Positions 16,942 to 49,220 of a stretch of 64,000 nucleotides of DNA are shown here, one piece after another. The position numbers and the translations under genes were made by a program. Position 1 is the stretch's first letter; every line of letters starts with the position of its first letter. The notes beneath the pieces are model-generated. The model was not told the DNA's origin. It saw only the letters and a program-made list of their open reading frames with translations, and searched no databases. The stretch is from Saccharomycodes ludwigii (Eukaryota; Ascomycota; Saccharomycetes; Saccharomycodales; Saccharomycodaceae), in contig NC_060205.1 of the NCBI RefSeq assembly GCF_020623625.1, forward strand, positions 1-64,000, in the 5' to 3' direction.

Positions 16942-19900
16942 TTAAAATAAATTGAAAAACAAAACAAATAAAGTAAAGAACATCTTGAAGGTAGATATTC
17001 TGTTTGAAACAGCACCAGCTTGGTAAATAGAAATTAATCCACTAGATGCTGGTTGAGATTGAATACTTTGAACCTCAATAGCAGCTGTGCTAGAAACAGT
17101 TTCTGATTGAATAGTGGTGGTGCTAACTTTGCCACCAGATGTGGTCTTGGTAATAACATTGTCGGAATTACCAGAGTTACCATTGGCACTCTTGGTAACA
17201 GTGGTATAAACAGAACCAGAAGAAATAGTCTCAACATATTCACTAGCATTGCCTGAAGAACCTGATCCATTTTCATTATTATTGTTTGGAACAATAGTAG
17301 ATGTAATAACAGAAGTGATAGTACTACCTGATGTAGTGTACACACTAGTCTTAGTAACAGTAACTGGTGTATTAGCAGTTTCGGAACTACCAGATCCACC
17401 ATTGTTGTTGTTGTTATTTGGAACAATAGTGGATGTGATAGTAGCAGTAATGATACTACCAGATGTGGTAAACACACTAGTCTTAGTAACAGTAACTGGT
17501 GTATTAGCAGTTTCGGAACTACCAGATCCACCGTTGTTGTTGTTGTTATTTGGAACAATAGTGGATGTGATAGTGGCAGTAATGGTGCTACCAGATGTGG
17601 TAAACACACTAGTCTTAGTAACAGTAACTGGTGTATTAGCAGTTTCGGAATTACCAGATCCACCGTTGTTGTTGTTGTTTGGAACAATAGTAGATGTAAT
17701 AACAGATGTGATAGTACTACCCGAAGTAGTGAATACACTAGTCTTAGTAACAGTAACTGGTGTATTAGCAGTTTCGGAATTACCAGATCCACCGTTGTTG
17801 TTGTTGTTATTTGGAACAATAGTAGAGGTGATAGTAGCAGTAATGGTACTACCAGATGTAGTGAATACACTAGTCTTGGTAACAGTGACTGGTGTATTAC
17901 CAGTTTCAGAACTACCAGATCCACCGTTGTTGTTGTTGTTATTTGGAACAATAGTGGAGGTGATAGTAGCAGTAATGGTACTACCAGATGTAGTGAATAC
18001 ACTAGTCTTAGTAACAGTAACTGGTGTATTGGAAGTCTCAGAACTAACAGAATAAACCTCGGAACCGGAATTGTTAGAACCACCATTATTGTTGTTGTTG
18101 TTGTTTGGAATAGTGGTGGTAGTAGCATCGCATGTGACTATAGTCGAGGTTATGGTTCTGCCAGATGTAACAATCACAGTAGTTCTTGTAACACTAGAAG
18201 GCAATCCAGATGTCTCAGTAGTTGGATTAACTGGAGAAACAGTTTCAGAAGTGGAGGTAGTACCTGGAGCTGAATTAGTAAAGGTTTCTGAAGTGGAGCT
18301 ACCTTTGCTTGGGTTTGTAAATGGCTCAGTGTTAGTGGTACCTGGAATAGAAGTCAATGGTAAAGATTTAGAACTGGTAGTGTTGAAATAACCAAATCCT
18401 GGTGTTTCAACGTAAATAATAGTGGAAGTGGTAAACAATCCATTAGAGCCAGTAACAGTGAAAATGTTAGTGGAATACGTCGAAGTGTAAGCACCACCCC
18501 AAGATGTGAATGTAGTACTAATGTCATAATTGGCTGGTGTTTCAACTGTGTATATGGTGGAAGTGGATGGTTTACCATCAGTACCAGTAGTAGTGATAAC
18601 ACTAGTACCAATAGTAGATGTAACAGATCCAGTCCATGGTGTGTACGTGGTGGTAACATCGTTGTTGGTTGGTGTTTCCACTGTGTAGATGGTGGAAGTG
18701 GTTGGTTTACCATCAGTACCAGTAGTAGTGATAACACTAGTACCAACAGTAGATGTAACAGATCCAGTCCATGGTGTGTACGTGGTGGTAACACCGTTGT
18801 TGGTTGGTGTTTCAACTGTGTAGATGGTAGATGTGGTTGGTTTACCATCAGTACCGGTAGTAGTGAAAATCGAAGTACCAACAGTAGTAGTAACGGATCC
18901 AGTCCATGGAACATTAGTAGTTGAAGCACCATGGTTAGCTGGTGTTTCAACGGTGTAAATGGTAGATGTAGTTGGAATACCATCAGTACCAGTAGTAGTT
19001 ATAACGCTAGTACCAATAGTAGATGTAACAGATCCAGTCCATGGTGTGTACGTGGTGGTAACACCGTTGTTGGTTGGGGTTTCAACTGTGTAGATGGTAG
19101 ATGTGGTTGGTTTACCATCAGTACCAGTAGTAGTGAAAATCGAAGTACCAACAGTAGTAGTAACGGATCCAGTCCATGGAACATTAGTAGTAGAAGCACC
19201 GTGGTTTTCTGGAGTTTCAACTGTGTAGACTGTAGAGGTAGTTGGTTTGCCATCAGTACCAGTGGTAGTAAATACAGTAGTACCAATGGTAGAAGTAACA
19301 GATCCAGTCCATGGGGTGTAAGTGGTAGTAACACCGTGGTTTTCTGGGGTTTCAACTGTGTAGACTGTAGAGGTAGTTGGTTTGCCATCAGTACCAGTGG
19401 TAGTAAATACAGTAGTACCAATGGTAGAAGTAACAGATCCAGTCCATGGGGTGTAAGTGGTAGTAACACCGTGGTTTTCTGGAGTTTCAACTGTGTAGGC
19501 TGTAGAGGTAGTTGGTTTGCCATCAGTACCAGTGGTAGTAAATACAGTAGTACCAATGGTAGAAGTAACAGATCCAGTCCATGGGGTGTAAGTGGTAGTA
19601 ACACCTTGATTTTCTGGAGTTTCAACTGTGTAGACTGTAGAGGTAGTTGGTTTTCCATCAGTACCAGTGGTAGTAAATATAGTAGTACCAATGGTAGATG
19701 TGTATGTACCGGTCCATGGAACATTAGTGGTAGAAGCACCGTAGTTTTCTGGAGTTTCAACTGTGTAGACTGTAGAGGTAGTTGGTTTGCCATCAGTACC
19801 AGTGGTAGTAAATACAGTAGTACCAATGGTAGTAGTATATATACCAGTCCAAGCTTCATATGTAGTACTACCAGCTGGAATCATTGGAATTTCAACTGTG

Positions 19901-22900
19901 TAAGTGGTAGATGTAGTTGGAATACCGTCTGATCCAATGCTGGTAGTAACACTAGTACCAATGGTAGAAGTAAATGTACCAGTCCATGGTGTGTAGGTGG
20001 TTGTAACACCTTCAGCTTCTGGAGTTTCCACAGTGTAGATAGTGGAGGTAGTTGGAATACCATCTGATCCAATGCTGGTAGTAACACTAGTACCAATGGT
20101 GGTAGCGTATGTACCAGTCCATGTGGTGTAAGTAGTGCTAACATGATCGGTTGGAGTTTCAACTGTGTAGATGGTAGAAGTAGTTGGAATACCATCAGAA
20201 CCTGTAGTAGTAGTAATACCAGTACCAACGGTGGTAGCGTATGTACCAGTCCATGTGGTGTAAGTAGTACTAACATGATCGGTTGGAGTTTCAACTGTGT
20301 AGATGGTAGAGGTAGTTGGAATACCATCAGAACCTGTAGTGGTAGTAATACCAATACCAACAGTGGTAGCGTATGTACCAGTCCATGTGGTGTAAGTAGT
20401 GCTAACATGATCGGTTGGAGTTTCAACTGTGTAGATGGTAGAAGTAGTTGGAATACCATCAGAACCTGTAGTGGTAATCACATTTGTACCAACGGTGGTA
20501 GCGTATGTACCAGTCCATGTGGTGTAAGTAGTGCTAACATGATCGGTTGGAGTTTCAACTGTGTAGATGGTAGAAGTAGTTGGAATACCATCAGAACCTG
20601 TAGTGGTAGTAATACCAGTACCAACGGTGGTAGCGTATGTACCAGTCCATGTGGTGTAAGTAGTGCTAACATGATCGGTAGGAGTTTCAACTGTGTAGAT
20701 GGTAGAGGTAGTTGGAATACCATCAGAACCTGTAGTGGTAGTAATACCAGTACCAACGGTGGTAGCGTATGTACCAGTCCATGTGGTGTAAGTAGTGCTA
20801 ACATGATCGGTTGGAGTTTCAACTGTGTAGATGGTAGAAGTAGTTGGAATACCATCAGAACCTGTAGTGGTAATCACATTTGTACCAACGGTGGTAGCGT
20901 ATGTACCAGTCCATGTGGTGTAAGTAGTGCTAACATGATCGGTTGGAGTTTCAACTGTGTAGATGGTAGAAGTAGTTGGAATACCATCAGAACCTGTAGT
21001 GGTAGTAATACCAGTACCAACGGTGGTAGCGTATGTACCAGTCCATGTGGTGTAAGTAGTACTAACATGATCGGTTGGAGTTTCAACTGTGTAGATGGTA
21101 GAGGTAGTTGGAATACCATCAGAACCTGTAGTGGTAGTAATACCAGTACCAACAGTGGTAGCGTATGTACCAGTCCATGTGGTGTAAGTAGTGCTAACAT
21201 GATCGGTTGGAGTTTCAACTGTGTAGATGGTAGAAGTAGTTGGAATACCATCAGAACCTGTAGTGGTAATCACATTTGTACCAACGGTGGTAGCGTATGT
21301 ACCAGTCCATGTGGTGTAAGTAGTGCTAACATGATCGGTTGGAGTTTCAACTGTGTAGATGGTAGAAGTAGTTGGAATACCATCAGAACCTGTAGTGGTA
21401 GTAATACCAGTACCAACGGTGGTAGCGTATGTACCAGTCCATGTGGTGTAAGTAGTGCTAACATGATCGGTTGGAGTTTCAACTGTGTAGATGGTAGAAG
21501 TAGTTGGAATACCATCAGAACCTGTAGTAGTAATCACATTTGTACCAACGGTGGTAGTAACGGATCCAGTCCATGGAACATTAGTAGTTGAAGCACCATG
21601 GTTAGCTGGTGTTTCAACAGTGTAGATGGTAGACGTAGTTGGAATACCATCAGTACCAGTAGTAGTTATAACGCTAGTACCAATAGTAGATGTAACAGAT
21701 CCAGTCCATGGTGTGTATGTGGTGGTAACACCGTTGTTAGCTGGTGTTTCAACTGTGTAAATGGTAGATGTAGTTGGTTTACCATCAGTACCGGTAGTAG
21801 TTATAACGCTAGTACCAATAGTAGATGTAACAGATCCAGTCCATGGTGTGTACGTGGTGGTAACACCGTTGTTGGTTGGGGTTTCAACTGTGTAGATGGT
21901 AGATGTGGTTGGTTTACCATCAGTACCAGTAGTAGTGAAAATCGAAGTACCAACAGTAGTAGTAACGGATCCAGTCCATGGAACATTAGTAGTAGAAGCA
22001 CCGTGGTTTTCTGGAGTTTCAACTGTGTAGACTGTAGAGGTAGTTGGTTTTCCATCAGTACCAGTGGTAGTAAATATAGTAGTACCAATGGTAGATGTGT
22101 ATGTACCGGTCCATGGAACATTAGTGGTAGAAGCACCGTAGTTTTCTGGAGTTTCAACTGTGTAGACTGTAGAGGTAGTTGGTTTGCCATCAGTACCAGT
22201 GGTAGTAAATACAGTAGTACCAATGGTAGTAGTATATATACCAGTCCAAGCTTCATATGTAGTACTACCAGCTGGAATCATTGGAATTTCAACTGTGTAA
22301 GTGGTAGATGTAGTTGGAATACCATCTGTACCAGTTGTAGTAACTACAGTAGTACCAATGGTGGATGTGTACGTACCGGTCCATGATGTGTAAGTGGTAG
22401 TAACACCTTCAGCTTCTGGAGTTTCAACTGTGTAGATAGTGGAGGTAGTTGGAATACCGTCTGATCCAATGCTGGTAGTAACACTAGTACCAATGGTAGA
22501 AGTAAATTTACCAGTCCATGGTGTGTAGGTGGTTGTAACACCTTCAGCTTCTGGAGTTTCCACAGTGTAGATAGTGGAGGTAGTTGGAATACCATCTGAT
22601 CCAATGCTGGTAGTAACACTAGTACCAATGGTGGTAGCGTATGTACCAGTCCATGTGGTGTAAGTAGTGCTAACATGATCGGTTGGAGTTTCAACTGTGT
22701 AGATGGTAGAAGTAGTTGGAATACCATCAGAACCTGTAGTGGTAGTAATACCAGTACCAACAGTGGTAGCGTATGTACCAGTCCATGTGGTGTAAGTAGT
22801 ACTAACATGATCGGTTGGAGTTTCAACTGTGTAGATGGTAGAAGTAGTTGGAATACCATCAGAACCTGTAGTAGTAATCACATTTGTACCAACGGTGGTA

Positions 22901-25900
22901 GCGTATGTACCAGTCCATGTGGTGTAAGTAGTGCTAACATGATCGGTTGGAGTTTCAACTGTGTAGATGGTAGAAGTAGTTGGAATACCATCAGAACCTG
23001 TAGTAGTAGTAATACCAGTACCAACGGTGGTAGCGTATGTACCAGTCCATGTGGTGTAAGTAGTACTAACATGATCGGTTGGAGTTTCAACTGTGTAGAT
23101 GGTAGAGGTAGTTGGAATACCATCAGAACCTGTAGTGGTAGTAATACCAATACCAACAGTGGTAGCGTATGTACCAGTCCATGTGGTGTAAGTAGTACTA
23201 ACATGATCGGTTGGAGTTTCAACTGTGTAGATGGTAGAGGTAGTTGGAATACCATCAGAACCTGTAGTGGTAGTAATACCAGTACCAACAGTGGTAGCGT
23301 ATGTACCAGTCCATGTGGTGTAAGTAGTGCTAACATGATCGGTAGGAGTTTCAACTGTGTAGATGGTAGAAGTAGTTGGAATACCATCAGAACCTGTAGT
23401 GGTAATCACATTTGTACCAACGGTGGTAGCGTATGTACCAGTCCATGTGGTGTAAGTAGTGCTAACATGATCGGTTGGAGTTTCAACTGTGTAGATGGTA
23501 GAGGTAGTTGGAATACCATCAGAACCTGTAGTAGTAATCACATTTGTACCAACGGTGGTAGCGTAGGTACCAGTCCATGTGGTGTAAGTAGTGCTAACAT
23601 GATCGGTTGGAGTTTCAACTGTGTAGATGGTAGAGGTAGTTGGAATACCATCAGAACCTGTAGTAGTAATCACATTTGTACCAACGGTGGTAGCGTATGT
23701 ACCAGTCCATGTGGTGTAAGTAGTGCTAACATGATCGGTAGGAGTTTCAACTGTGTAGATGGTAGAAGTAGTTGGAATACCATCAGAACCTGTAGTGGTA
23801 GTAATACCAGTACCAACGGTGGTAGCGTATGTACCAGTCCATGTGGTGTAAGTAGTGCTAACATGATCGGTAGGAGTTTCAACTGTGTAGATGGTAGAGG
23901 TAGTTGGAATACCATCAGAACCTGTAGTGGTAGTAATACCAGTACCAACAGTGGTAGCGTATGTACCAGTCCATGTGGTGTAAGTAGTGCTAACATGATC
24001 GGTTGGAGTTTCAACTGTGTAGATGGTAGAGGTAGTTGGAATACCATCAGAACCTGTAGTGGTAGTAATACCAGTACCAACGGTGGTAGCGTATGTACCA
24101 GTCCATGTGGTGTAAGTAGTGCTAACATGATCGGTTGGAGTTTCAACTGTGTAGATGGTAGAGGTAGTTGGAATACCATCAGAACCTGTAGTAGTAATCA
24201 CATTTGTACCAACGGTGGTAGCGTAGGTACCAGTCCATGTGGTGTAAGTAGTGCTAACATGATCGGTTGGAGTTTCAACTGTGTAGATGGTAGAAGTAGT
24301 TGGAATACCATCAGAACCTGTAGTAGTAATCACATTTGTACCAACGGTGGTAGCGTATGTACCAGTCCATGTGGTGTAAGTAGTGCTAACATGATCGGTT
24401 GGTGTTTCAACAGTGTAGATGGTAGACGTAGTTGGAATACCATCAGTACCAGTAGTAGTTATAACGCTAGTACCAATAGTAGATGTAACAGATCCAGTCC
24501 ATGGTGTGTATGTGGTGGTAACACCGTTGTTAGCTGGTGTTTCAACAGTGTAGATGGTAGATGTAGTTGGAATACCATCAGTACCAGTAGTAGTTATAAC
24601 GCTAGTACCAATAGTAGATGTAACAGATCCAGTCCATGGTGTGTATGTGGTGGTAACACCGTTGTTAGCTGGTGTTTCAACTGTGTAAATGGTAGATGTA
24701 GTTGGTTTACCATCAGTACCGGTAGTAGTTATAACGCTAGTACCAATAGTAGATGTAACAGATCCAGTCCATGGTGTGTACGTGGTGGTAACACCGTTGT
24801 TGGTTGGGGTTTCAACTGTGTAGATGGTAGATGTGGTTGGTTTACCATCAGTACCAGTAGTAGTGAAAATCGAAGTACCAACAGTAGTAGTAACGGATCC
24901 AGTCCATGGAACATTAGTAGTAGAAGCACCGTGGTTTTCTGGAGTTTCAACTGTGTAGACTGTAGAGGTAGTTGGTTTGCCATCAGTACCAGTGGTAGTA
25001 AATATAGTAGTACCAATGGTAGATGTGTATGTACCGGTCCATGGAACATTAGTGGTAGAAGCACCGTAGTTTTCTGGAGTTTCAACTGTGTAGACTGTAG
25101 AGGTAGTTGGTTTGCCATCAGTACCAGTGGTAGTAAATACAGTAGTACCAATGGTAGTAGTATATATACCAGTCCAAGCTTCATATGTAGTACTACCAGC
25201 TGGAATCATTGGAATTTCAACTGTGTAAGTGGTAGATGTAGTTGGAATACCATCTGTACCAGTTGTAGTAACTACAGTAGTACCAATGGTGGATGTGTAC
25301 GTACCGGTCCATGATGTGTAAGTGGTAGTAACACCTTCAGCTTCTGGAGTTTCAACTGTGTAGATAGTGGAGGTAGTTGGAATACCGTCTGATCCAATGC
25401 TGGTAGTAACACTAGTACCAATGGTAGAAGTAAATGTACCAGTCCATGGTGTGTAGGTGGTTGTAACACCTTCAGCTTCTGGAGTTTCCACAGTGTAGAT
25501 AGTGGAGGTAGTTGGAATACCATCTGATCCAATGCTGGTAGTAACACTAGTACCAATGGTGGTAGCGTATGTACCAGTCCATGTGGTGTAAGTAGTGCTA
25601 ACATGATCGGTTGGAGTTTCAACTGTGTAGATGGTAGAAGTAGTTGGAATACCATCAGAACCTGTAGTAGTAGTAATACCAGTACCAACGGTGGTAGCGT
25701 ATGTACCAGTCCATGTGGTGTAAGTAGTACTAACATGATCGGTTGGAGTTTCAACTGTGTAGATGGTAGAGGTAGTTGGAATACCATCAGAACCTGTAGT
25801 AGTAATCACATTTGTACCAACGGTGGTAGCGTATGTACCAGTCCATGTGGTGTAAGTAGTGCTAACATGATCGGTTGGAGTTTCAACTGTGTAGATGGTA

Positions 25901-28900
25901 GAAGTAGTTGGAATACCATCAGAACCTGTAGTAGTAGTAATACCAGTACCAACGGTGGTAGCGTATGTACCAGTCCATGTGGTGTAAGTAGTACTAACAT
26001 GATCGGTTGGAGTTTCAACTGTGTAGATGGTAGAGGTAGTTGGAATACCATCAGAACCTGTAGTGGTAGTAATACCAATACCAACAGTGGTAGCGTATGT
26101 ACCAGTCCATGTGGTGTAAGTAGTACTAACATGATCGGTTGGAGTTTCAACTGTGTAGATGGTAGAGGTAGTTGGAATACCATCAGAACCTGTAGTGGTA
26201 GTAATACCAGTACCAACAGTGGTAGCGTATGTACCAGTCCATGTGGTGTAAGTAGTGCTAACATGATCGGTAGGAGTTTCAACTGTGTAGATGGTAGAAG
26301 TAGTTGGAATACCATCAGAACCTGTAGTGGTAATCACATTTGTACCAACGGTGGTAGCGTATGTACCAGTCCATGTGGTGTAAGTAGTGCTAACATGATC
26401 GGTTGGAGTTTCAACTGTGTAGATGGTAGAGGTAGTTGGAATACCATCAGAACCTGTAGTAGTAATCACATTTGTACCAACGGTGGTAGCGTAGGTACCA
26501 GTCCATGTGGTGTAAGTAGTGCTAACATGATCGGTTGGAGTTTCAACTGTGTAGATGGTAGAGGTAGTTGGAATACCATCAGAACCTGTAGTAGTAATCA
26601 CATTTGTACCAACGGTGGTAGCGTATGTACCAGTCCATGTGGTGTAAGTAGTGCTAACATGATCGGTAGGAGTTTCAACTGTGTAGATGGTAGAAGTAGT
26701 TGGAATACCATCAGAACCTGTAGTGGTAGTAATACCAGTACCAACGGTGGTAGCGTATGTACCAGTCCATGTGGTGTAAGTAGTGCTAACATGATCGGTA
26801 GGAGTTTCAACTGTGTAGATGGTAGAGGTAGTTGGAATACCATCAGAACCTGTAGTGGTAGTAATACCAGTACCAACAGTGGTAGCGTATGTACCAGTCC
26901 ATGTGGTGTAAGTAGTGCTAACATGATCGGTTGGAGTTTCAACTGTGTAGATGGTAGAGGTAGTTGGAATACCATCAGAACCTGTAGTGGTAGTAATACC
27001 AGTACCAACGGTGGTAGCGTATGTACCAGTCCATGTGGTGTAAGTAGTGCTAACATGATCGGTTGGAGTTTCAACTGTGTAGATGGTAGAGGTAGTTGGA
27101 ATACCATCAGAACCTGTAGTAGTAATCACATTTGTACCAACGGTGGTAGCGTAGGTACCAGTCCATGTGGTGTAAGTAGTGCTAACATGATCGGTTGGAG
27201 TTTCAACTGTGTAGATGGTAGAAGTAGTTGGAATACCATCAGAACCTGTAGTAGTAATCACATTTGTACCAACGGTGGTAGCGTATGTACCAGTCCATGT
27301 GGTGTAAGTAGTGCTAACATGATCGGTTGGTGTTTCAACAGTGTAGATGGTAGACGTAGTTGGAATACCATCAGTACCAGTAGTAGTTATAACGCTAGTA
27401 CCAATAGTAGATGTAACAGATCCAGTCCATGGTGTGTATGTGGTGGTAACACCGTTGTTAGCTGGTGTTTCAACAGTGTAGATGGTAGATGTAGTTGGAA
27501 TACCATCAGTACCAGTAGTAGTTATAACGCTAGTACCAATAGTAGATGTAACAGATCCAGTCCATGGTGTGTATGTGGTGGTAACACCGTTGTTAGCTGG
27601 TGTTTCAACTGTGTAAATGGTAGATGTAGTTGGTTTACCATCAGTACCGGTAGTAGTTATAACGCTAGTACCAATAGTAGATGTAACAGATCCAGTCCAT
27701 GGTGTGTACGTGGTGGTAACACCGTTGTTGGTTGGGGTTTCAACTGTGTAGATGGTAGATGTGGTTGGTTTACCATCAGTACCAGTAGTAGTGAAAATCG
27801 AAGTACCAACAGTAGTAGTAACGGATCCAGTCCATGGAACATTAGTAGTAGAAGCACCGTGGTTTTCTGGAGTTTCAACTGTGTAGACTGTAGAGGTAGT
27901 TGGTTTGCCATCAGTACCAGTGGTAGTAAATATAGTAGTACCAATGGTAGATGTGTATGTACCGGTCCATGGAACATTAGTGGTAGAAGCACCGTAGTTT
28001 TCTGGAGTTTCAACTGTGTAGACTGTAGAGGTAGTTGGTTTGCCATCAGTACCAGTGGTAGTAAATACAGTAGTACCAATGGTAGTAGTATATATACCAG
28101 TCCAAGCTTCATATGTAGTACTACCAGCTGGAATCATTGGAATTTCAACTGTGTAAGTGGTAGATGTAGTTGGAATACCATCTGTACCAGTTGTAGTAAC
28201 TACAGTAGTACCAATGGTGGATGTGTACGTACCGGTCCATGATGTGTAAGTGGTAGTAACACCTTCAGCTTCTGGAGTTTCAACTGTGTAGATAGTGGAG
28301 GTAGTTGGAATACCGTCTGATCCAATGCTGGTAGTAACACTAGTACCAATGGTAGAAGTAAATGTACCAGTCCATGGTGTGTAGGTGGTTGTAACACCTT
28401 CAGCTTCTGGAGTTTCCACAGTGTAGATAGTGGAGGTAGTTGGAATACCATCTGATCCAATGCTGGTAGTAACACTAGTACCAATGGTGGTAGCGTATGT
28501 ACCAGTCCATGTGGTGTAAGTAGTGCTAACATGATCGGTTGGAGTTTCAACTGTGTAGATGGTAGAAGTAGTTGGAATACCATCAGAACCTGTAGTAGTA
28601 GTAATACCAGTACCAACGGTGGTAGCGTATGTACCAGTCCATGTGGTGTAAGTAGTACTAACATGATCGGTTGGAGTTTCAACTGTGTAGATGGTAGAGG
28701 TAGTTGGAATACCATCAGAACCTGTAGTGGTAGTAATACCAATACCAACAGTGGTAGCGTATGTACCAGTCCATGTGGTGTAAGTAGTGCTAACATGATC
28801 GGTTGGAGTTTCAACTGTGTAGATGGTAGAAGTAGTTGGAATACCATCAGAACCTGTAGTGGTAATCACATTTGTACCAACGGTGGTAGCGTATGTACCA

Positions 28901-31900
28901 GTCCATGTGGTGTAAGTAGTGCTAACATGATCGGTTGGAGTTTCAACTGTGTAGATGGTAGAAGTAGTTGGAATACCATCAGAACCTGTAGTGGTAGTAA
29001 TACCAGTACCAACGGTGGTAGCGTATGTACCAGTCCATGTGGTGTAAGTAGTACTAACATGATCGGTTGGAGTTTCAACTGTGTAGATGGTAGAGGTAGT
29101 TGGAATACCATCAGAACCTGTAGTGGTAGTAATACCAGTACCAACAGTGGTAGCGTATGTACCAGTCCATGTGGTGTAAGTAGTGCTAACATGATCGGTT
29201 GGAGTTTCAACTGTGTAGATGGTAGAAGTAGTTGGAATACCATCAGAACCTGTAGTGGTAATCACATTTGTACCAACGGTGGTAGCGTATGTACCAGTCC
29301 ATGTGGTGTAAGTAGTGCTAACATGATCGGTTGGAGTTTCAACTGTGTAGATGGTAGAAGTAGTTGGAATACCATCAGAACCTGTAGTGGTAGTAATACC
29401 AGTACCAACGGTGGTAGCGTATGTACCAGTCCATGTGGTGTAAGTAGTGCTAACATGATCGGTTGGAGTTTCAACTGTGTAGATGGTAGAAGTAGTTGGA
29501 ATACCATCAGAACCTGTAGTAGTAATCACATTTGTACCAACGGTGGTAGTAACGGATCCAGTCCATGGAACATTAGTAGTTGAAGCACCATGGTTAGCTG
29601 GTGTTTCAACAGTGTAGATGGTAGACGTAGTTGGAATACCATCAGTACCAGTAGTAGTTATAACGCTAGTACCAATAGTAGATGTAACAGATCCAGTCCA
29701 TGGTGTGTATGTGGTGGTAACACCGTTGTTAGCTGGTGTTTCAACTGTGTAAATGGTAGATGTAGTTGGTTTACCATCAGTACCGGTAGTAGTTATAACG
29801 CTAGTACCAATAGTAGATGTAACAGATCCAGTCCATGGTGTGTACGTGGTGGTAACACCGTTGTTGGTTGGGGTTTCAACTGTGTAGATGGTAGATGTGG
29901 TTGGTTTACCATCAGTACCAGTAGTAGTGAAAATCGAAGTACCAACAGTAGTAGTAACGGATCCAGTCCATGGAACATTAGTAGTAGAAGCACCGTGGTT
30001 TTCTGGAGTTTCAACTGTGTAGACTGTAGAGGTAGTTGGTTTTCCATCAGTACCAGTGGTAGTAAATATAGTAGTACCAATGGTAGATGTGTATGTACCG
30101 GTCCATGGAACATTAGTGGTAGAAGCACCGTAGTTTTCTGGAGTTTCAACTGTGTAGACTGTAGAGGTAGTTGGTTTGCCATCAGTACCAGTGGTAGTAA
30201 ATACAGTAGTACCAATGGTAGTAGTATATATACCAGTCCAAGCTTCATATGTAGTACTACCAGCTGGAATCATTGGAATTTCAACTGTGTAAGTGGTAGA
30301 TGTAGTTGGAATACCATCTGTACCAGTTGTAGTAACTACAGTAGTACCAATGGTGGATGTGTACGTACCGGTCCATGATGTGTAAGTGGTAGTAACACCT
30401 TCAGCTTCTGGAGTTTCAACTGTGTAGATAGTGGAGGTAGTTGGAATACCGTCTGATCCAATGCTGGTAGTAACACTAGTACCAATGGTAGAAGTAAATT
30501 TACCAGTCCATGGTGTGTAGGTGGTTGTAACACCTTCAGCTTCTGGAGTTTCCACAGTGTAGATAGTGGAGGTAGTTGGAATACCATCTGATCCAATGCT
30601 GGTAGTAACACTAGTACCAATGGTGGTAGCGTATGTACCAGTCCATGTGGTGTAAGTAGTGCTAACATGATCGGTTGGAGTTTCAACTGTGTAGATGGTA
30701 GAGGTAGTTGGAATACCATCAGAACCTGTAGTGGTAGTAATACCAGTACCAACGGTGGTAGCGTATGTACCAGTCCATGTGGTGTAAGTAGTGCTAACAT
30801 GATCGGTTGGAGTTTCAACTGTGTAGATGGTAGAAGTAGTTGGAATACCATCAGAACCTGTAGTGGTAGTAATACCAGTACCAACGGTGGTAGCGTATGT
30901 ACCAGTCCATGTGGTGTAAGTAGTGCTAACATGATCGGTAGGAGTTTCAACTGTGTAGATGGTAGAAGTAGTTGGAATACCATCAGAACCTGTAGTGGTA
31001 GTAATACCAGTACCAACGGTGGTAGCGTATGTACCAGTCCATGTGGTGTAAGTAGTGCTAACATGATCGGTTGGAGTTTCAACTGTGTAGATGGTAGAGG
31101 TAGTTGGAATACCGTCAGAACCTGTAGTAGTAATCACATTTGTATCAACGGTGGTAGCGTAGGTACCAGTCCATGTGGTGTAAGTAGTGCTAACATGATC
31201 GGTTGGAGTTTCAACTGTGTAGATGGTAGAAGTAGTTGGAATACCATCAGAACCTGTAGTAGTAATCACATTTGTACCAACGGTGGTAGCGTATGTACCA
31301 GTCCATGTGGTGTAAGTAGTGCTAACATGATCGGTTGGAGTTTCAACTGTGTAGATGGTAGAAGTAGTTGGAATACCATCAGAACCTGTAGTAGTAATCA
31401 CATTTGTACCAACGGTGGTAGCGTATGTACCAGTCCATGTGGTGTAAGTAGTGCTAACATGATCGGTTGGAGTTTCAACTGTGTAGATGGTAGAAGTAGT
31501 TGGAATACCATCAGAACCTGTAGTGGTAGTAATACCAGTACCAACGGTGGTAGCGTATGTACCAGTCCATGTGGTGTAAGTAGTGCTAACATGATCGGTA
31601 GGAGTTTCAACTGTGTAGATGGTAGAGGTAGTTGGAATACCATCAGAACCTGTAGTGGTAGTAATACCAGTACCAACAGTGGTAGCGTATGTACCAGTCC
31701 ATGTGGTGTAAGTAGTGCTAACATGATCGGTTGGAGTTTCAACTGTGTAGATGGTAGAAGTAGTTGGAATACCATCAGAACCTGTAGTAGTAATCACATT
31801 TGTACCAACGGTGGTAGCGTATGTACCAGTCCATGTGGCGTAAGTAGTGCTAACATGATCGGTAGGAGTTTCAACTGTGTAGATGGTAGAAGTAGTTGGA

Positions 31901-34900
31901 ATACCATCAGAACCTGTAGTGGTAGTAATACCAGTACCAACGGTGGTAGCGTATGTACCAGTCCATGTGGTGTAAGTAGTGCTAACATGATCGGTTGGAG
32001 TTTCAACTGTGTAGATGGTAGAAGTAGTTGGAATACCATCAGAACCTGTAGTGGTAGTAATACCAGTACCAACGGTGGTAGCGTATGTACCAGTCCATGT
32101 GGTGTAAGTAGTGCTAACATGATCGGTAGGAGTTTCAACTGTGTAGATGGTAGAGGTAGTTGGAATACCATCAGAACCTGTAGTGGTAGTAATACCAGTA
32201 CCAACAGTGGTAGCGTATGTACCAGTCCATGTGGTGTAAGTAGTGCTAACATGATCGGTAGGAGTTTCAACTGTGTAGATGGTAGAAGTAGTTGGAATAC
32301 CATCAGAACCTGTAGTAGTAATCACATTTGTACCAACGGTGGTAGCGTATGTACCAGTCCATGTGGTGTAAGTAGTGCTAACATGATCGGTAGGAGTTTC
32401 AACTGTGTAGATGGTAGAAGTAGTTGGAATACCATCAGAACCTGTAGTGGTAGTAATACCAGTACCAACGGTGGTAGCGTATGTACCAGTCCATGTGGTG
32501 TAAGTAGTGCTAACATGATCGGTAGGAGTTTCAACTGTGTAGATGGTAGAGGTAGTTGGAATACCATCAGAACCTGTAGTGGTAGTAATACCAGTACCAA
32601 CGGTGGTAGCGTATGTACCAGTCCATGTGGTGTAAGTAGTGCTAACATGATCGGTTGGAGTTTCAACTGTGTAGATGGTAGAGGTAGTTGGAATACCGTC
32701 AGAACCTGTAGTAGTAATCACATTTGTATCAACGGTGGTAGCGTAGGTACCAGTCCATGTGGTGTAAGTAGTGCTAACATGATCGGTTGGAGTTTCAACT
32801 GTGTAGATGGTAGAAGTAGTTGGAATACCATCAGAACCTGTAGTAGTAATCACATTTGTACCAACGGTGGTAGCGTATGTACCAGTCCATGTGGTGTAAG
32901 TAGTGCTAACATGATCGGTAGGAGTTTCAACTGTGTAGATGGTAGAGGTAGTTGGAATACCATCAGAACCTGTAGTGGTAGTAATACCAGTACCAACAGT
33001 GGTAGCGTATGTACCAGTCCATGTGGTGTAAGTAGTGCTAACATGATCGGTAGGAGTTTCAACTGTGTAGATGGTAGAGGTAGTTGGAATACCATCAGAA
33101 CCTGTAGTAGTAATCACATTTGTACCAACGGTGGTAGCGTATGTACCAGTCCATGTGGTGTAAGTAGTGCTAACATGATCGGTTGGAGTTTCAACTGTGT
33201 AGATGGTAGAAGTAGTTGGAATACCATCAGAACCTGTAGTGGTAATCACATTTGTACCAACGGTGGTAGCGTATGTACCAGTCCATGTGGTGTAAGTAGT
33301 GCTAACATGATCGGTTGGAGTTTCAACTGTGTAGATGGTAGAAGTAGTTGGAATACCATCAGAACCTGTAGTGGTAGTAATACCAGTACCAACGGTGGTA
33401 GCGTATGTACCAGTCCATGTGGTGTAAGTAGTGCTAACATGATCGGTAGGAGTTTCAACTGTGTAGATGGTAGAGGTAGTTGGAATACCATCAGAACCTG
33501 TAGTGGTAGTAATACCAGTACCAACAGTGGTAGCGTATGTACCAGTCCATGTGGTGTAAGTAGTGCTAACATGATCGGTTGGAGTTTCAACTGTGTAGAT
33601 GGTAGAGGTAGTTGGAATACCATCAGAACCTGTAGTAGTAATCACATTTGTACCAACGGTGGTAGCGTATGTACCAGTCCATGTGGTGTAAGTAGTGCTA
33701 ACATGATCGGTTGGAGTTTCAACTGTGTAGATGGTAGAGGTAGTTGGAATACCATCAGAACCTGTAGTAGTAATCACATTTGTACCAACGGTGGTAGCGT
33801 ATGTACCAGTCCATGTGGTGTAAGTAGTGCTAACATGATCGGTTGGAGTTTCAACTGTGTAGATGGTAGACGTAGTTGGAATACCATCAGTACCAGTAGT
33901 AGTGATAACACTAGTACCAATAGTAGATGTAACAGATCCAGTCCATGGTGTGTACGTGGTGGTAACACCGTTGTTGGTTGGTGTTTCAACTGTGTAGATG
34001 GTAGATGTAGTTGGTTTACCATCTGATCCAATACTGGTAGTAACACTAGTACCAATGGTAGAAGTAAATGTACCAGTCCATGGTGTGTAAGTGGTAGTAA
34101 CACCTTCAGCTTCTGGAGTTTCAACTGTGTAGATAGTAGAGGTAGTTGGAATACCATCTGATCCAACACTGGTGGTAACACTGGTACCAATGGTAGAAGT
34201 AAATGTACCAGTCCATGGAGTGTAGGTGGTAGTAACAGCATCAGCTTCTGGAGTTTCAACTGTGTAGATAGTGGAGGTAGTTGGAATACCGTCTGATCCA
34301 ATGCTGGTAGTAACACTAGTACCAATGGTAGAAGTAAATGTACCAGTCCATGGTGTGTAAGTGGTAGTAACACCTTCAGCTTCTGGAGTTTCAACTGTGT
34401 AGATAGTGGAGGTAGTTGGAATACCATCTGATCCAATACTGGTAGTAACACTAGTACCAATGGTAGAAGTAAATGTACCAGTCCATGGTGTGTAAGTGGT
34501 AGTAACACCTTCAGCTTCTGGAGTTTCACCTGTGTAGATAGTGGAGGTAGTTGGAATACCATCTGATCCAATACTGGTAGTAACACTAGTACCAATGGTA
34601 GAAGTATATGTACCAGTCCATGGAGTGTAGGTGGTAGTAACAGCATCAGCTTCTGGAGTTTCAACTGTGTAGATAGTGGAGGTAGTTGGAATACCATCTG
34701 ATCCAATACTGGTAGTAACACTAGTACCAATGGTAGAAGTAAATGTACCAGTCCATGGTGTGTAAGTGGTAGTAACACCTTCAGCTTCTGGAGTTTCAAC
34801 TGTGTAGATAGTGGAGGTAGTTGGAATACCGTCTGATCCAATGCTGGTAGTAACACTAGTACCAATGGTAGAAGTAAATGTACCAGTCCATGGTGTGTAA

Positions 34901-36669
34901 GTGGTAGTAACACCTTCAGCTTCTGGAGTTTCAACTGTGTAGATAGTGGAGGTAGTTGGAATACCATCTGATCCAATACTGGTAGTAACACTAGTACCAA
35001 TGGTAGAAGTAAATGTACCAGTCCATGGTGTGTAAGTGGTTGTAACACCTTCAGCTTCTGGAGTTTCAACTGTGTAGATAGTGGAGGTAGTTGGAATACC
35101 ATCTGATCCAATACTGGTAGTAACACTAGTACCAATGGTAGAAGTATATGTACCAGTCCATGGTGTGTAAGTAGTAGTAGTACCTTCAACTTCTGGAGTC
35201 TCAACTGTGTAGATAGTAGAGGTTGTTGGAATACCATCTGAACCAACACTGGTGGTAACACTGGTACCAATAGTGGAAGTGTATGTACCAGTCCATGGTG
35301 TGTAGGTGGTAGTAGTATCTTTAGCTTCTGGTGTTTCGATATAGATTAAAGTAGAAGTGGTAGAAAATCCATCAGATCCGACAATAGTGGTAACACCAGT
35401 GGAGTAAGTAGATGTGTAAGTACCAGTCCATTCCATGGTAGTAGTACTGATTTCAGCTGGGGTTTCAATGTAGATCAAAGTAGAAGTGGTGGGCAATCCA
35501 TCAGACCCAACAATAGTGGTAACACCAGTGGAGTAGGTAGATGTGTAAGTACCAGTCCATTCATTGGTAGTAGTACTGATTTCAGCTGGCGTCTCGACAT
35601 AGTATAAAGTAGACAAGGTAGTGAACCCATCAGCCCCGACGTATGTAGTAATACTAGTTGCATAAGTAGTAGTGTACGTTCCGGTCCATTGCTGAGTGGT
35701 GGTTGAACTAACATCAGCATCTGGTGTTTCTATTATAACAATATTTTCTGTAATGGTGGATGATTTTGAAGTGACAACTGTAGTGGTAGTATAAGTGCTT
35801 GTAATGTTTTGAGACCAGCCAACAGTCGTTGTAACTACTGGAGCATCACAGACCTCAGAAGAGTCTGCCATATTAAAAACAATGTCATCCCATTCGTTAT
35901 GGTAAACACCATCTGGGCCTGTATAACCCAATTCTAAACCACCATCGTTGTTGGTATTAACGTAAAACAATCTAATAGGATAATAAACACCTGCAATTAA
36001 ATCAACTTGAATTTGGTTGGTACCACTTGGCCCATTTGCTGTCCATAAAGAGTAAACTTGATATGTTTCTATGGAAATAGAAGTGCCACTTTCCATACAA
36101 CAATCAAAAGCAATACCGGCACCCAAAGAAACGATACCTAAATCATCAACATACTGTAATTGAATGAGATAGGAACCAGAAACTGGTGGGACAAAATAAC
36201 CAGTAGCAACCATAGCCCAATTAGTTAAGAAGAATTCTTCTGTATAACCAAAGCCTGATGGCAAAGTACCTTCAACAGCGATATTAACATAACCAGCTGG
36301 CAACTCAAAAAGATATGTAAGATTGGTGGCATCATTAACTTGTGCAAACATCCCCTGATCAACGTAACCGCCTTCAATATAGGAATCTTCTAAATAAGTT
36401 GTTCTATCAGGAGTCCCGGTAATTGCAGAAATACTGTAGGATAGCCAATTATAATTATAAAACTTAACTTGAAACCCTGACGTACGGCTGGAAATAGCAC
36501 TTGAATCAGGATTACAACCATTAACTGTACCATCAGTTGCAATACCAATTGCAGAAACATAGGAACTAGGTGAAAAATACGAGATATAAAAGTGGAGATA
36601 AACCAAAACTAGTGACAACAAATTTAGGTTTTTGCTGCCCCGTTGGCGAAATATACTGCTCAAAACCAT
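16942..36669 (-). CDS. Giant GPI-anchored flocculin/adhesin with PA14 (GLEYA-like) head
   Basis: A 6,575-residue cell-surface protein. Residues 1-40 are a secretion signal (hydrophobic 17-30, likely cleavage after YVSA). Residues about 51-275 form a Flo/Epa-type PA14 lectin head: Asp-Asp in YVDDLG (D175, D176) matches the calcium-coordinating cis-Asp pair, AFDCC (187-191) is the conserved double Cys, and GLELGY (244-249) matches the GLEYA motif. From about residue 300 to 6080 run about 130 Thr-rich flocculin repeats of 44-45 residues (core WTGTYTTT...VETP). The stalk continues with a Ser/Thr-rich linker, six or seven repeats of about 40 residues (NTPVTVTKTSV with Asn runs), and ends in a hydrophobic tail (KMFFTLFVLFFNLF) typical of a GPI signal. 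Predicted role: sugar-dependent flocculation or adhesion, covalently linked to wall glucan. S. cerevisiae Flo1 is 1,537 residues, so this is over four times longer. The whole frame is open. It is flanked by 5.3 kb (3') and 2.6 kb (5') without genes. Confidence 0.95.
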   Translation of the reverse strand: MVLSSIFRQRGSKNLNLLSLVLVYLHFYISYFSPSSYVSAIGIATDGTVNGCNPDSSAISSRTSGFQVKFYNYNWLSYSISAITGTPDRTTYLEDSYIEGGYVDQGMFAQVNDATNLTYLFELPAGYVNIAVEGTLPSGFGYTEEFFLTNWAMVATGYFVPPVSGSYLIQLQYVDDLGIVSLGAGIAFDCCMESGTSISIETYQVYSLWTANGPSGTNQIQVDLIAGVYYPIRLFYVNTNNDGGLELGYTGPDGVYHNEWDDIVFNMADSSEVCDAPVVTTTVGWSQNITSTYTTTTVVTSKSSTITENIVIIETPDADVSSTTTQQWTGTYTTTYATSITTYVGADGFTTLSTLYYVETPAEISTTTNEWTGTYTSTYSTGVTTIVGSDGLPTTSTLIYIETPAEISTTTMEWTGTYTSTYSTGVTTIVGSDGFSTTSTLIYIETPEAKDTTTTYTPWTGTYTSTIGTSVTTSVGSDGIPTTSTIYTVETPEVEGTTTTYTPWTGTYTSTIGTSVTTSIGSDGIPTTSTIYTVETPEAEGVTTTYTPWTGTFTSTIGTSVTTSIGSDGIPTTSTIYTVETPEAEGVTTTYTPWTGTFTSTIGTSVTTSIGSDGIPTTSTIYTVETPEAEGVTTTYTPWTGTFTSTIGTSVTTSIGSDGIPTTSTIYTVETPEADAVTTTYTPWTGTYTSTIGTSVTTSIGSDGIPTTSTIYTGETPEAEGVTTTYTPWTGTFTSTIGTSVTTSIGSDGIPTTSTIYTVETPEAEGVTTTYTPWTGTFTSTIGTSVTTSIGSDGIPTTSTIYTVETPEADAVTTTYTPWTGTFTSTIGTSVTTSVGSDGIPTTSTIYTVETPEAEGVTTTYTPWTGTFTSTIGTSVTTSIGSDGKPTTSTIYTVETPTNNGVTTTYTPWTGSVTSTIGTSVITTTGTDGIPTTSTIYTVETPTDHVSTTYTTWTGTYATTVGTNVITTTGSDGIPTTSTIYTVETPTDHVSTTYTTWTGTYATTVGTNVITTTGSDGIPTTSTIYTVETPTDHVSTTYTTWTGTYATTVGTGITTTTGSDGIPTTSTIYTVETPTDHVSTTYTTWTGTYATTVGTGITTTTGSDGIPTTSTIYTVETPTDHVSTTYTTWTGTYATTVGTNVITTTGSDGIPTTSTIYTVETPTDHVSTTYTTWTGTYATTVGTNVITTTGSDGIPTTSTIYTVETPTDHVSTTYTTWTGTYATTVGTGITTTTGSDGIPTTSTIYTVETPTDHVSTTYTTWTGTYATTVGTNVITTTGSDGIPTTSTIYTVETPTDHVSTTYTTWTGTYATTVDTNVITTTGSDGIPTTSTIYTVETPTDHVSTTYTTWTGTYATTVGTGITTTTGSDGIPTTSTIYTVETPTDHVSTTYTTWTGTYATTVGTGITTTTGSDGIPTTSTIYTVETPTDHVSTTYTTWTGTYATTVGTNVITTTGSDGIPTTSTIYTVETPTDHVSTTYTTWTGTYATTVGTGITTTTGSDGIPTTSTIYTVETPTDHVSTTYTTWTGTYATTVGTGITTTTGSDGIPTTSTIYTVETPTDHVSTTYTTWTGTYATTVGTGITTTTGSDGIPTTSTIYTVETPTDHVSTTYATWTGTYATTVGTNVITTTGSDGIPTTSTIYTVETPTDHVSTTYTTWTGTYATTVGTGITTTTGSDGIPTTSTIYTVETPTDHVSTTYTTWTGTYATTVGTGITTTTGSDGIPTTSTIYTVETPTDHVSTTYTTWTGTYATTVGTNVITTTGSDGIPTTSTIYTVETPTDHVSTTYTTWTGTYATTVGTNVITTTGSDGIPTTSTIYTVETPTDHVSTTYTTWTGTYATTVDTNVITTTGSDGIPTTSTIYTVETPTDHVSTTYTTWTGTYATTVGTGITTTTGSDGIPTTSTIYTVETPTDHVSTTYTTWTGTYATTVGTGITTTTGSDGIPTTSTIYTVETPTDHVSTTYTTWTGTYATTVGTGITTTTGSDGIPTTSTIYTVETPTDHVSTTYTTWTGTYATTIGTSVTTSIGSDGIPTTSTIYTVETPEAEGVTTTYTPWTGKFTSTIGTSVTTSIGSDGIPTTSTIYTVETPEAEGVTTTYTSWTGTYTSTIGTTVVTTTGTDGIPTTSTTYTVEIPMIPAGSTTYEAWTGIYTTTIGTTVFTTTGTDGKPTTSTVYTVETPENYGASTTNVPWTGTYTSTIGTTIFTTTGTDGKPTTSTVYTVETPENHGASTTNVPWTGSVTTTVGTSIFTTTGTDGKPTTSTIYTVETPTNNGVTTTYTPWTGSVTSTIGTSVITTTGTDGKPTTSTIYTVETPANNGVTTTYTPWTGSVTSTIGTSVITTTGTDGIPTTSTIYTVETPANHGASTTNVPWTGSVTTTVGTNVITTTGSDGIPTTSTIYTVETPTDHVSTTYTTWTGTYATTVGTGITTTTGSDGIPTTSTIYTVETPTDHVSTTYTTWTGTYATTVGTNVITTTGSDGIPTTSTIYTVETPTDHVSTTYTTWTGTYATTVGTGITTTTGSDGIPTTSTIYTVETPTDHVSTTYTTWTGTYATTVGTGITTTTGSDGIPTTSTIYTVETPTDHVSTTYTTWTGTYATTVGTNVITTTGSDGIPTTSTIYTVETPTDHVSTTYTTWTGTYATTVGIGITTTTGSDGIPTTSTIYTVETPTDHVSTTYTTWTGTYATTVGTGITTTTGSDGIPTTSTIYTVETPTDHVSTTYTTWTGTYATTIGTSVTTSIGSDGIPTTSTIYTVETPEAEGVTTTYTPWTGTFTSTIGTSVTTSIGSDGIPTTSTIYTVETPEAEGVTTTYTSWTGTYTSTIGTTVVTTTGTDGIPTTSTTYTVEIPMIPAGSTTYEAWTGIYTTTIGTTVFTTTGTDGKPTTSTVYTVETPENYGASTTNVPWTGTYTSTIGTTIFTTTGTDGKPTTSTVYTVETPENHGASTTNVPWTGSVTTTVGTSIFTTTGTDGKPTTSTIYTVETPTNNGVTTTYTPWTGSVTSTIGTSVITTTGTDGKPTTSTIYTVETPANNGVTTTYTPWTGSVTSTIGTSVITTTGTDGIPTTSTIYTVETPANNGVTTTYTPWTGSVTSTIGTSVITTTGTDGIPTTSTIYTVETPTDHVSTTYTTWTGTYATTVGTNVITTTGSDGIPTTSTIYTVETPTDHVSTTYTTWTGTYATTVGTNVITTTGSDGIPTTSTIYTVETPTDHVSTTYTTWTGTYATTVGTGITTTTGSDGIPTTSTIYTVETPTDHVSTTYTTWTGTYATTVGTGITTTTGSDGIPTTSTIYTVETPTDHVSTTYTTWTGTYATTVGTGITTTTGSDGIPTTSTIYTVETPTDHVSTTYTTWTGTYATTVGTNVITTTGSDGIPTTSTIYTVETPTDHVSTTYTTWTGTYATTVGTNVITTTGSDGIPTTSTIYTVETPTDHVSTTYTTWTGTYATTVGTNVITTTGSDGIPTTSTIYTVETPTDHVSTTYTTWTGTYATTVGTGITTTTGSDGIPTTSTIYTVETPTDHVSTTYTTWTGTYATTVGIGITTTTGSDGIPTTSTIYTVETPTDHVSTTYTTWTGTYATTVGTGITTTTGSDGIPTTSTIYTVETPTDHVSTTYTTWTGTYATTVGTNVITTTGSDGIPTTSTIYTVETPTDHVSTTYTTWTGTYATTVGTGITTTTGSDGIPTTSTIYTVETPTDHVSTTYTTWTGTYATTIGTSVTTSIGSDGIPTTSTIYTVETPEAEGVTTTYTPWTGTFTSTIGTSVTTSIGSDGIPTTSTIYTVETPEAEGVTTTYTSWTGTYTSTIGTTVVTTTGTDGIPTTSTTYTVEIPMIPAGSTTYEAWTGIYTTTIGTTVFTTTGTDGKPTTSTVYTVETPENYGASTTNVPWTGTYTSTIGTTIFTTTGTDGKPTTSTVYTVETPENHGASTTNVPWTGSVTTTVGTSIFTTTGTDGKPTTSTIYTVETPTNNGVTTTYTPWTGSVTSTIGTSVITTTGTDGKPTTSTIYTVETPANNGVTTTYTPWTGSVTSTIGTSVITTTGTDGIPTTSTIYTVETPANNGVTTTYTPWTGSVTSTIGTSVITTTGTDGIPTTSTIYTVETPTDHVSTTYTTWTGTYATTVGTNVITTTGSDGIPTTSTIYTVETPTDHVSTTYTTWTGTYATTVGTNVITTTGSDGIPTTSTIYTVETPTDHVSTTYTTWTGTYATTVGTGITTTTGSDGIPTTSTIYTVETPTDHVSTTYTTWTGTYATTVGTGITTTTGSDGIPTTSTIYTVETPTDHVSTTYTTWTGTYATTVGTGITTTTGSDGIPTTSTIYTVETPTDHVSTTYTTWTGTYATTVGTNVITTTGSDGIPTTSTIYTVETPTDHVSTTYTTWTGTYATTVGTNVITTTGSDGIPTTSTIYTVETPTDHVSTTYTTWTGTYATTVGTNVITTTGSDGIPTTSTIYTVETPTDHVSTTYTTWTGTYATTVGTGITTTTGSDGIPTTSTIYTVETPTDHVSTTYTTWTGTYATTVGIGITTTTGSDGIPTTSTIYTVETPTDHVSTTYTTWTGTYATTVGTGITTTTGSDGIPTTSTIYTVETPTDHVSTTYTTWTGTYATTVGTNVITTTGSDGIPTTSTIYTVETPTDHVSTTYTTWTGTYATTVGTGITTTTGSDGIPTTSTIYTVETPTDHVSTTYTTWTGTYATTIGTSVTTSIGSDGIPTTSTIYTVETPEAEGVTTTYTPWTGKFTSTIGTSVTTSIGSDGIPTTSTIYTVETPEAEGVTTTYTSWTGTYTSTIGTTVVTTTGTDGIPTTSTTYTVEIPMIPAGSTTYEAWTGIYTTTIGTTVFTTTGTDGKPTTSTVYTVETPENYGASTTNVPWTGTYTSTIGTTIFTTTGTDGKPTTSTVYTVETPENHGASTTNVPWTGSVTTTVGTSIFTTTGTDGKPTTSTIYTVETPTNNGVTTTYTPWTGSVTSTIGTSVITTTGTDGKPTTSTIYTVETPANNGVTTTYTPWTGSVTSTIGTSVITTTGTDGIPTTSTIYTVETPANHGASTTNVPWTGSVTTTVGTNVITTTGSDGIPTTSTIYTVETPTDHVSTTYTTWTGTYATTVGTGITTTTGSDGIPTTSTIYTVETPTDHVSTTYTTWTGTYATTVGTNVITTTGSDGIPTTSTIYTVETPTDHVSTTYTTWTGTYATTVGTGITTTTGSDGIPTTSTIYTVETPTDHVSTTYTTWTGTYATTVGTGITTTTGSDGIPTTSTIYTVETPTDHVSTTYTTWTGTYATTVGTNVITTTGSDGIPTTSTIYTVETPTDHVSTTYTTWTGTYATTVGTGITTTTGSDGIPTTSTIYTVETPTDHVSTTYTTWTGTYATTVGTGITTTTGSDGIPTTSTIYTVETPTDHVSTTYTTWTGTYATTVGTNVITTTGSDGIPTTSTIYTVETPTDHVSTTYTTWTGTYATTVGIGITTTTGSDGIPTTSTIYTVETPTDHVSTTYTTWTGTYATTVGTGITTTTGSDGIPTTSTIYTVETPTDHVSTTYTTWTGTYATTIGTSVTTSIGSDGIPTTSTIYTVETPEAEGVTTTYTPWTGTFTSTIGTSVTTSIGSDGIPTTSTTYTVEIPMIPAGSTTYEAWTGIYTTTIGTTVFTTTGTDGKPTTSTVYTVETPENYGASTTNVPWTGTYTSTIGTTIFTTTGTDGKPTTSTVYTVETPENQGVTTTYTPWTGSVTSTIGTTVFTTTGTDGKPTTSTAYTVETPENHGVTTTYTPWTGSVTSTIGTTVFTTTGTDGKPTTSTVYTVETPENHGVTTTYTPWTGSVTSTIGTTVFTTTGTDGKPTTSTVYTVETPENHGASTTNVPWTGSVTTTVGTSIFTTTGTDGKPTTSTIYTVETPTNNGVTTTYTPWTGSVTSTIGTSVITTTGTDGIPTTSTIYTVETPANHGASTTNVPWTGSVTTTVGTSIFTTTGTDGKPTTSTIYTVETPTNNGVTTTYTPWTGSVTSTVGTSVITTTGTDGKPTTSTIYTVETPTNNDVTTTYTPWTGSVTSTIGTSVITTTGTDGKPSTSTIYTVETPANYDISTTFTSWGGAYTSTYSTNIFTVTGSNGLFTTSTIIYVETPGFGYFNTTSSKSLPLTSIPGTTNTEPFTNPSKGSSTSETFTNSAPGTTSTSETVSPVNPTTETSGLPSSVTRTTVIVTSGRTITSTIVTCDATTTTIPNNNNNNNGGSNNSGSEVYSVSSETSNTPVTVTKTSVFTTSGSTITATITSTIVPNNNNNNGGSGSSETGNTPVTVTKTSVFTTSGSTITATITSTIVPNNNNNNGGSGNSETANTPVTVTKTSVFTTSGSTITSVITSTIVPNNNNNGGSGNSETANTPVTVTKTSVFTTSGSTITATITSTIVPNNNNNNGGSGSSETANTPVTVTKTSVFTTSGSIITATITSTIVPNNNNNNGGSGSSETANTPVTVTKTSVYTTSGSTITSVITSTIVPNNNNENGSGSSGNASEYVETISSGSVYTTVTKSANGNSGNSDNVITKTTSGGKVSTTTIQSETVSSTAAIEVQSIQSQPASSGLISIYQAGAVSNRISTFKMFFTLFVLFFNLF
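17240..18060 (-). repeat. Intragenic repeats of about 120-125 bp in the adhesin C-terminal stalk
   Basis: Six close copies, and one more diverged copy further N-terminal, encode units of about 40 residues with NTPVTVTKTSV, TTSGSTIT and an Asn run of five or six residues. The Asn runs are GTT/AAC trinucleotide repeats and vary in length between copies, as expected for slippage. This array lies just before the GPI signal and is unrelated to the 132-bp flocculin repeats. Confidence 0.9.
20143..30666 (-). repeat. Higher-order repeats in the adhesin (A-B-B-A' blocks)
   Basis: The same ordered group of unit types restarts at 20143, 22675, 25603 and 28531, and again at 30667. Two adjacent blocks are exactly 2,928 bp each (22675-25602 and 25603-28530) and are almost identical after their first 100-200 bp. 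The outer blocks (20143-22674, 2,532 bp; 28531-30666, 2,136 bp) resemble each other and differ in length by 396 bp, which is three 132-bp units. This is a recent segmental amplification on top of the basic array. Confidence 0.85.
31141..32734 (-). repeat. Second higher-order period of 1,584 bp in the adhesin
   Basis: A rare unit variant (TGTATCAACG on the + strand, encoding VDTNV instead of VGTNV) occurs at 31141 and again at 32725. The offset of 1,584 bp equals twelve 132-bp units, and neighbouring unit types match over much of the interval. This marks a separate duplication from the 2,928-bp blocks. Confidence 0.7.
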
Positions 36670-36693
36670 TTGAAACTATTTAGATATGGCAGA

Positions 36694-49177: not shown

Positions 49178-49220
49178 TATTGTATGGTTAAATATTGTTA
49201 TTATAATTTTTATATATCAG

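Follow-up and report, generated by a model that had tools for sequence, protein, structure and literature searches.

A Putative Lectin Adhesin Gene of 6,575 Codons with a Private Flocculin Repeat Type at a Chromosome End of Saccharomycodes ludwigii

The number of repeats in a flocculin tunes adhesion. The Saccharomyces proteins Flo1, Flo5, and Flo9 resemble the putative adhesin described here in having a PA14-type head, 45-aa flocculin units (PF00624), and a GPI-type end, the last being predicted in the present protein. Flo1 is 1,537 aa long and has 18 units of 45 aa (PMC3537727; PMC8621652). The present protein, at 6,575 aa, has 130 units, and 72 of these belong to a private 44-aa type. Several C. 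glabrata genes exceed 13 kb, as mentioned in PMC8496292. In the wine yeast Saccharomycodes ludwigii, flocculins have been noted as a group, and the species is reported to flocculate (PMC7903802, which cites a paper titled lectin-mediated flocculation of S. ludwigii). Among the entries listed by literature searches, none describes this gene. The stems "floccul" and "adhes" are absent from the main text of the paper describing the genome (PMC8567612).

The window analyzed here is a stretch of 64,000 nucleotides (NC_060205.1, positions 1 to 64,000) at the left end of contig C6, in a 12.5-Mb genome of 8 contigs. On its minus strand, positions 16942–36669 constitute one open reading frame from ATG to TAA, with 6,575 codons and zero internal stops. 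The predicted mass is 680 kDa before glycosylation. Ser and Thr together account for 3,011 residues (46%), and there are five Cys residues, none of them within the repeat array. From the N-terminus, a hydrophobic start is followed by a lectin head, the 130 flocculin units, a tail carrying an Asn-rich array, and a hydrophobic GPI-like end. Hydrophobic stretches are located at residues 14–30 and 6560–6575, and a signal-peptide-like N-terminus (approximately residues 1–40; 36550–36669, minus strand) and a GPI-like C-terminal signal (the last 30 residues; 16945–17034, minus strand) were read by eye; the same C-terminal ending is seen in many paralogue frames. A possible TATA element, TATATAAA, is present approximately 200 bp upstream of the ATG (36870–36877, minus strand). 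The uninterrupted 19.7-kb frame, the approximately 130 repeats, and the stalk far longer than that of S. cerevisiae Flo1, all claimed in the first-pass annotation, are confirmed. Judged from sequence comparison, the gene product is likely, with a probability of roughly 85%, to be a lectin adhesin of the Flo/Epa kind that depends on calcium, carries a GPI anchor, and has a very long, O-mannosylated stalk. We infer that this protein may act in flocculation.

The lectin head covers approximately residues 41–285 (35815–36549, minus strand). When a 423-aa N-terminal piece was scanned against Pfam, GLEYA (PF10528, E 1.4e-20) scored better than PA14 (PF07691, E 2.3e-12), both above the cut-off. PA14 at the head of the gene was also recovered by the genome-wide search (E 4.5e-12). 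The Pfam scan of the whole 3,288-aa first half listed only Flocculin, neither GLEYA nor PA14, which may be due to the composition filters of HMMER. The comparison with solved structures, which covered 20 distinct chains with E up to 0.01, ranked Epa1 first (8.8e-29), followed by Epa6, Lg-Flo1, Flo5, an Epa9-like chain, Flo1, and Epa9. The chains 4lhk and 4gq7 are Lg-Flo1 according to a table in PMC8621652. A flocculin-type PA14 head with the calcium-site Asp pair had been proposed earlier. The PA14/GLEYA lectin and the Asp pair stand, but both the Pfam scores and the highest-ranking solved relatives place the head nearer to Epa/GLEYA than to Flo1/Flo5.

The alignment with C. glabrata Epa1 and Epa6 extends over residues 50–276 and keeps the Asp pair, the Cys-Cys, and the loop Asn. 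Asp175-Asp176 (36142–36147, minus strand) and Asn238 align with the calcium-site positions of Epa1 and Epa6. Asn238 presumably plays a role at the calcium site. Residues 238–243 (NTNNDG; 35941–35958, minus strand) align with the Epa loop at the position of the second carbohydrate-binding loop. The phmmer comparison of the head with 23 fetched loci, 22 of which have a PA14 match, yielded 10 paralogue heads at E up to 1e-5. Asp175 and Asn238 are conserved in all 10 and Asp176 in nine, while positions 239–243 are variable and residue 239 is unlike that of any of the 10. Four of the six cysteines of the Epa heads, a trait of the Epa subgroup, are matched (C52, C190, C191, and C274); the other two have no counterpart in the head. 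Among the paralogue heads, C190 is kept in 8/10 and both C191 and C274 in 10/10; C52 lies inside only four aligned pieces and is kept in all four. The conserved Asp pair and Asn, combined with the variable loop, would be expected of lectins that have a single calcium site in common but bind different ligands. The Asp pair of the calcium site has been named the DcisD motif (PMC8621652).

The main array occupies residues 313–6086 (18412–35733, minus strand). When the sequence is cut at [VIG]E[TI]P, 130 full units result; 72 are 44 aa long, 56 are 45 aa long, and two are 43 aa long. Pfam recognizes 67 Flocculin (PF00624) stretches in one half of the protein and 63 in the other. The units comprise 53 DNA types and 32 protein types. 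Every unit is in frame, and unit lengths vary by whole codons only. The units are rich in Thr and Ser and poor in basic residues, with 29 Lys and Arg against 397 Asp and Glu in the array. The tail contains a second, Asn-rich array of ~44-aa units (17285–18051, minus strand) with a period of 132 bp and 5.8 copies.

The 44-aa unit type is private to this gene within the genome. A 23-base motif of this unit, in a search that covered the two serine codon boxes and tolerated at most two mismatches, has 72 mismatch-free matches in the genome, all inside this gene, where they span 20129–33843 (minus strand) and are broken up by blocks of 45-aa units. Elsewhere in the genome, there are three two-mismatch matches, and a reversed-pattern control also gave three, so that no other match rises above the control level. 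The units were also compared with those of 20 paralogue loci, with gaps allowed (310 distinct unit-locus pairs). The 44-aa units (20 DNA types) show 77.8–85.9% identity to the nearest paralogue unit. Of the 31 types of 45-aa units, 30 show 81.6–98.5% identity and one shows 69.1%. The two 43-aa units show 68.8 and 71.2%. There is no letter-for-letter copy of any unit in the fetched paralogues.

The G+C content is 42–43% across most of the array and 0.295–0.316 in three core stretches of the genome. GC-biased gene conversion as its cause is unsupported; G+C at fourfold sites is 0.194 in the array versus 0.294 in seven pooled neighbour genes. Because the fourfold-site value is lower than that of the neighbours, the raised G+C comes from the amino acid composition. 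Open frames of up to 1,119 aa on the plus strand were considered as a second gene and rejected; they are a by-product of the 132-bp unit, which has a stop-free antisense frame. In the sense direction, the consensus unit has one additional frame free of stops.

Higher-order structure is evident in the array. Exact runs of identical units reach a length of 21, compared with at most four in 200 shuffles. A block of 22 units (2,928 bp) is tandemly duplicated with zero differences across 2,957 bp; the two copies, at 25772–28728 and 22844–25800 (minus strand), are spaced 2,928 bp apart. Another exact repeat of 1,952 bp is found at 28751–30702 and 20759–22710 (minus strand), with a spacing of 7,992 bp. 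The haploid mutation rate of this species is given as 1.2e-10 per site per generation (PMC8567612). With this rate, zero differences over 2 × 2,957 bp place the last copying less than ~4.2 million generations ago at 95%, and with the diploid rate the bound is 8.9 million generations; the age of the duplication could be underestimated by these figures if conversion occurred later. With its 5,774 residues, the stalk would measure ~2.1 micrometres when fully stretched and 1.2–1.4 micrometres in a mucin-like state, under an assumed rise per residue.

The 3' end of the gene points to the telomere. A telomere-like irregular C/A repeat forms the chromosome end (1–200), and ~14 copies of a 47-bp AT-rich satellite lie directly inside it (234–888). 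A 497-aa subtelomeric frame (9605–11098) has no Pfam match at 0.001 and no PDB match at 0.1. The tested portion of the shared subtelomere, directly 3' of the gene (13500–16941), is repeated with 86–97% identity at 13 other chromosome ends, where C8 is counted as the right end of C7. At 14/14 ends, a copy of the tail of this gene adjoins the flank, pointing to the telomere; the right end of C1 has only a 361-bp remnant. Further copies of the tail are found at eight other places, one of which is internal (C4, 742 kb), and the tail is therefore not confined to chromosome ends. The upstream region (36670–39200) has no long copy elsewhere in the genome; its non-self matches are short and AT-rich in character. 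The DNA of the head is at most 70% identical to the fetched paralogues, over 261–549 bp. With the head and the upstream region unique and the tail and the 3' flank shared, the gene therefore straddles the border between the unique arm and the shared subtelomere. Further inside (42472–61884), the gene order, going by the domains found, would be YME2, UBP15, CAB4, CWC22, SCW4/10, and FKS3. This order merges two S. cerevisiae tracks, as expected without genome duplication in the lineage. It has already been stated in PMC8567612 that subtelomere-related sequences and genes are common to all scaffold ends. The assembly in that paper has 7 scaffolds. The only MAT-alpha match in the genome lies on the fifth contig, in agreement with its placement on chrE in PMC8567612. 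The 26-kb contig C8 shares 6.35 kb with the right end of C7 at 96.9% identity (loci C8:16469-26468 and C7:782462-792461), and this overlap extends as far as a flocculin array, so C8 probably supplies the right end that C7 lacks.

PA14 was found at 23 places in the genome. The present gene has the longest open frame (6,577 codons as counted in that search), and the next are 3,085 and 2,934 codons long; the head open frames at the other 22 places range from 209 to 3,085 codons. Many other S. ludwigii flocculins share the tail and the 3' flank of this gene at 86–97%, but none has the private 44-aa unit motif. Six flocculin copies at other ends (L012, L014, L015, L017, L024, and L025) have interrupted frames in this assembly, which could be due to decay or to residual sequencing indels. 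An internal locus (C1:2163500-2172500) has a 1,991-codon frame with ~29 flocculin units and codon habits unlike those of other arrays; the genome-wide search gave no PA14 match there.

The units show a pattern of purifying selection. The pN/pS ratio between units is 0.28 for the 44-aa type (190 pairs) and 0.39 for the 45-aa type (465 pairs). The fraction of optimal codons, as defined from a single reference gene, enolase, is 0.665 in the array, 0.659 in its distinct units, 0.622 in the tail, and 0.507 in the head. It is 0.39–0.47 in seven neighbour genes and 0.40–0.64 in nine more frames, each 300 codons or longer, taken from three core stretches. In 100 random draws with the codon use of the neighbours, the array reached 0.40 (maximum 0.415) and the head up to 0.52. 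The array and the tail thus stand out from the neighbours, while the head is within the random range and some ordinary genes come near the array, which makes the codon signal a weak one. Neither the pN/pS nor the codon figures are independent samples, because the units share ancestry. The codon figures support translation of the array but do not prove it.

Is the length an artifact? That the assembler duplicated blocks and the true array is much shorter appears very improbable, even though the stretches of 2,957 bp and 1,952 bp recur without difference and the assembly breaks within another flocculin array, at the 6.35-kb overlap of C8 and C7. The source assembly is based on 193,117 PacBio reads with a mean of 13,041 bp, ~200x (PMC8567612). 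Under three assumed length distributions, exponential or gamma, 14–41 reads are expected to reach across the gene with 1 kb added, and 71–95 across the tandem block pair. The NBRC 1722 assembly was polished with Quiver and Pilon (PMC8567612). The remaining blocks differ from one another (53 DNA unit types), their length differences are whole codons, and ~5,600 aa would still be left if one exact block were subtracted. Assembly expansion is thus unlikely as the source of the bulk of the length, while one extra 2,928-bp copy is possible; the likeliest error would be one block more or less. A genuinely long gene could still be silent or decaying, its frame kept open through recent amplification rather than through use. 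The subtelomeric location, the young appearance of part of the array, and the interrupted frames of family members at other ends are in line with such a state. It is nevertheless improbable, as the distinct units show the purifying pattern, the head and both ends are intact, a TATA-like element lies upstream, and the codon figures lean, weakly, in the same direction.

Another reading concerns the ligand and is a variant within the preferred reading of a GPI-anchored lectin adhesin. The protein could be an Epa-like adhesin for sugars on hosts or surfaces rather than a flocculin for mannan between cells. Lg-Flo1, Flo5, and Flo1 all rank behind Epa1 and Epa6, the score of GLEYA exceeds that of PA14, and loop residue 239 is unlike that of all 10 paralogue heads found. 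As Epa1 and Epa6 head the list of solved relatives, the ligand may be of the galactose type rather than mannose. However, the structural ranking does not fix the sugar, because Epa9 and further PA14 lectins are interspersed with the Flo proteins or come after them. The species itself is reported to flocculate by lectins (PMC7903802). An Epa-like specificity is a serious possibility, although the less probable of the two.

As a lectin adhesin of the Flo/Epa kind, the protein would be secreted, O-mannosylated, and joined to wall glucan via a GPI remnant. The stalk would keep the lectin at a distance of one to two micrometres from its anchor, and the head would bind sugars of neighbouring cells or surfaces. 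In the history of the gene, the private unit type was probably amplified first, with whole blocks of ~22 units duplicated afterwards, which would account for the length of the stalk. The most likely route of duplication would be mitotic unequal sister exchange, slippage, or break-induced repair. The tail and the 3' flank are probably exchanged among chromosome ends. S. ludwigii is reported to show extreme suppression of meiotic crossing over, with working mitotic recombination (PMC8567612). Given this near-absence of meiotic crossovers, the stalk probably expanded through mitotic exchange or repair. A stronger version, in which blocks of the private unit are amplified by mitotic events alone, so that the stalk keeps growing, and in which its length is itself selected as a micrometre-scale tether, is tentative and rather doubtful. 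If it is true, the 14 chromosome ends would form a mitotic recombination network with junctions inside flocculin genes. A gene of 130 units in a nearly crossover-free yeast bears on how arrays grow without meiotic crossing over, and mutation-accumulation lines of S. ludwigii of ~2,000 generations exist (PMC8567612). The gene also offers a natural test of the maximum length at which a GPI-anchored wall protein is still displayed.

Among known adhesins, the parts of the protein correspond to those of the Flo type. By its head, it appears nearer to the Epa subtype, and by its repeat, it would be classified as a flocculin; the stalk of 130 flocculin units distinguishes it from C. glabrata Epa1 and Epa6. 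A lineage-specific repeat is also described for putative adhesins of Nakaseomyces bracarensis, in which an SDGKTHT motif occurs up to 228 times per protein (PMC11542307). That motif differs from the one in the window and is spread across 31 adhesins, rather than being private to one gene (PMC11542307). Among the closest systems is C. glabrata Awp14, a giant GPI adhesin of adhesin cluster III with more than 110 repeats and its 3' end near the telomere (PMC8634165). The head of Awp14 belongs to another adhesin cluster than the present head, and the repeat cores VSHITT and SFFIT, a trait of Awp cluster III, occur zero times each in the 6,575-aa protein. Because of Awp14, giant telomere-facing adhesins are already known. 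Awp14 is also larger, with a gene of more than 26 kb, a spacer of more than 8,000 aa, and 114 VSHITT cores (PMC8634165), and the extreme length stressed in the first-pass annotation is thereby not without precedent. The S. ludwigii gene belongs to an established kind of adhesin, in which it is an extreme case but not the longest one known, Awp14 exceeding it.
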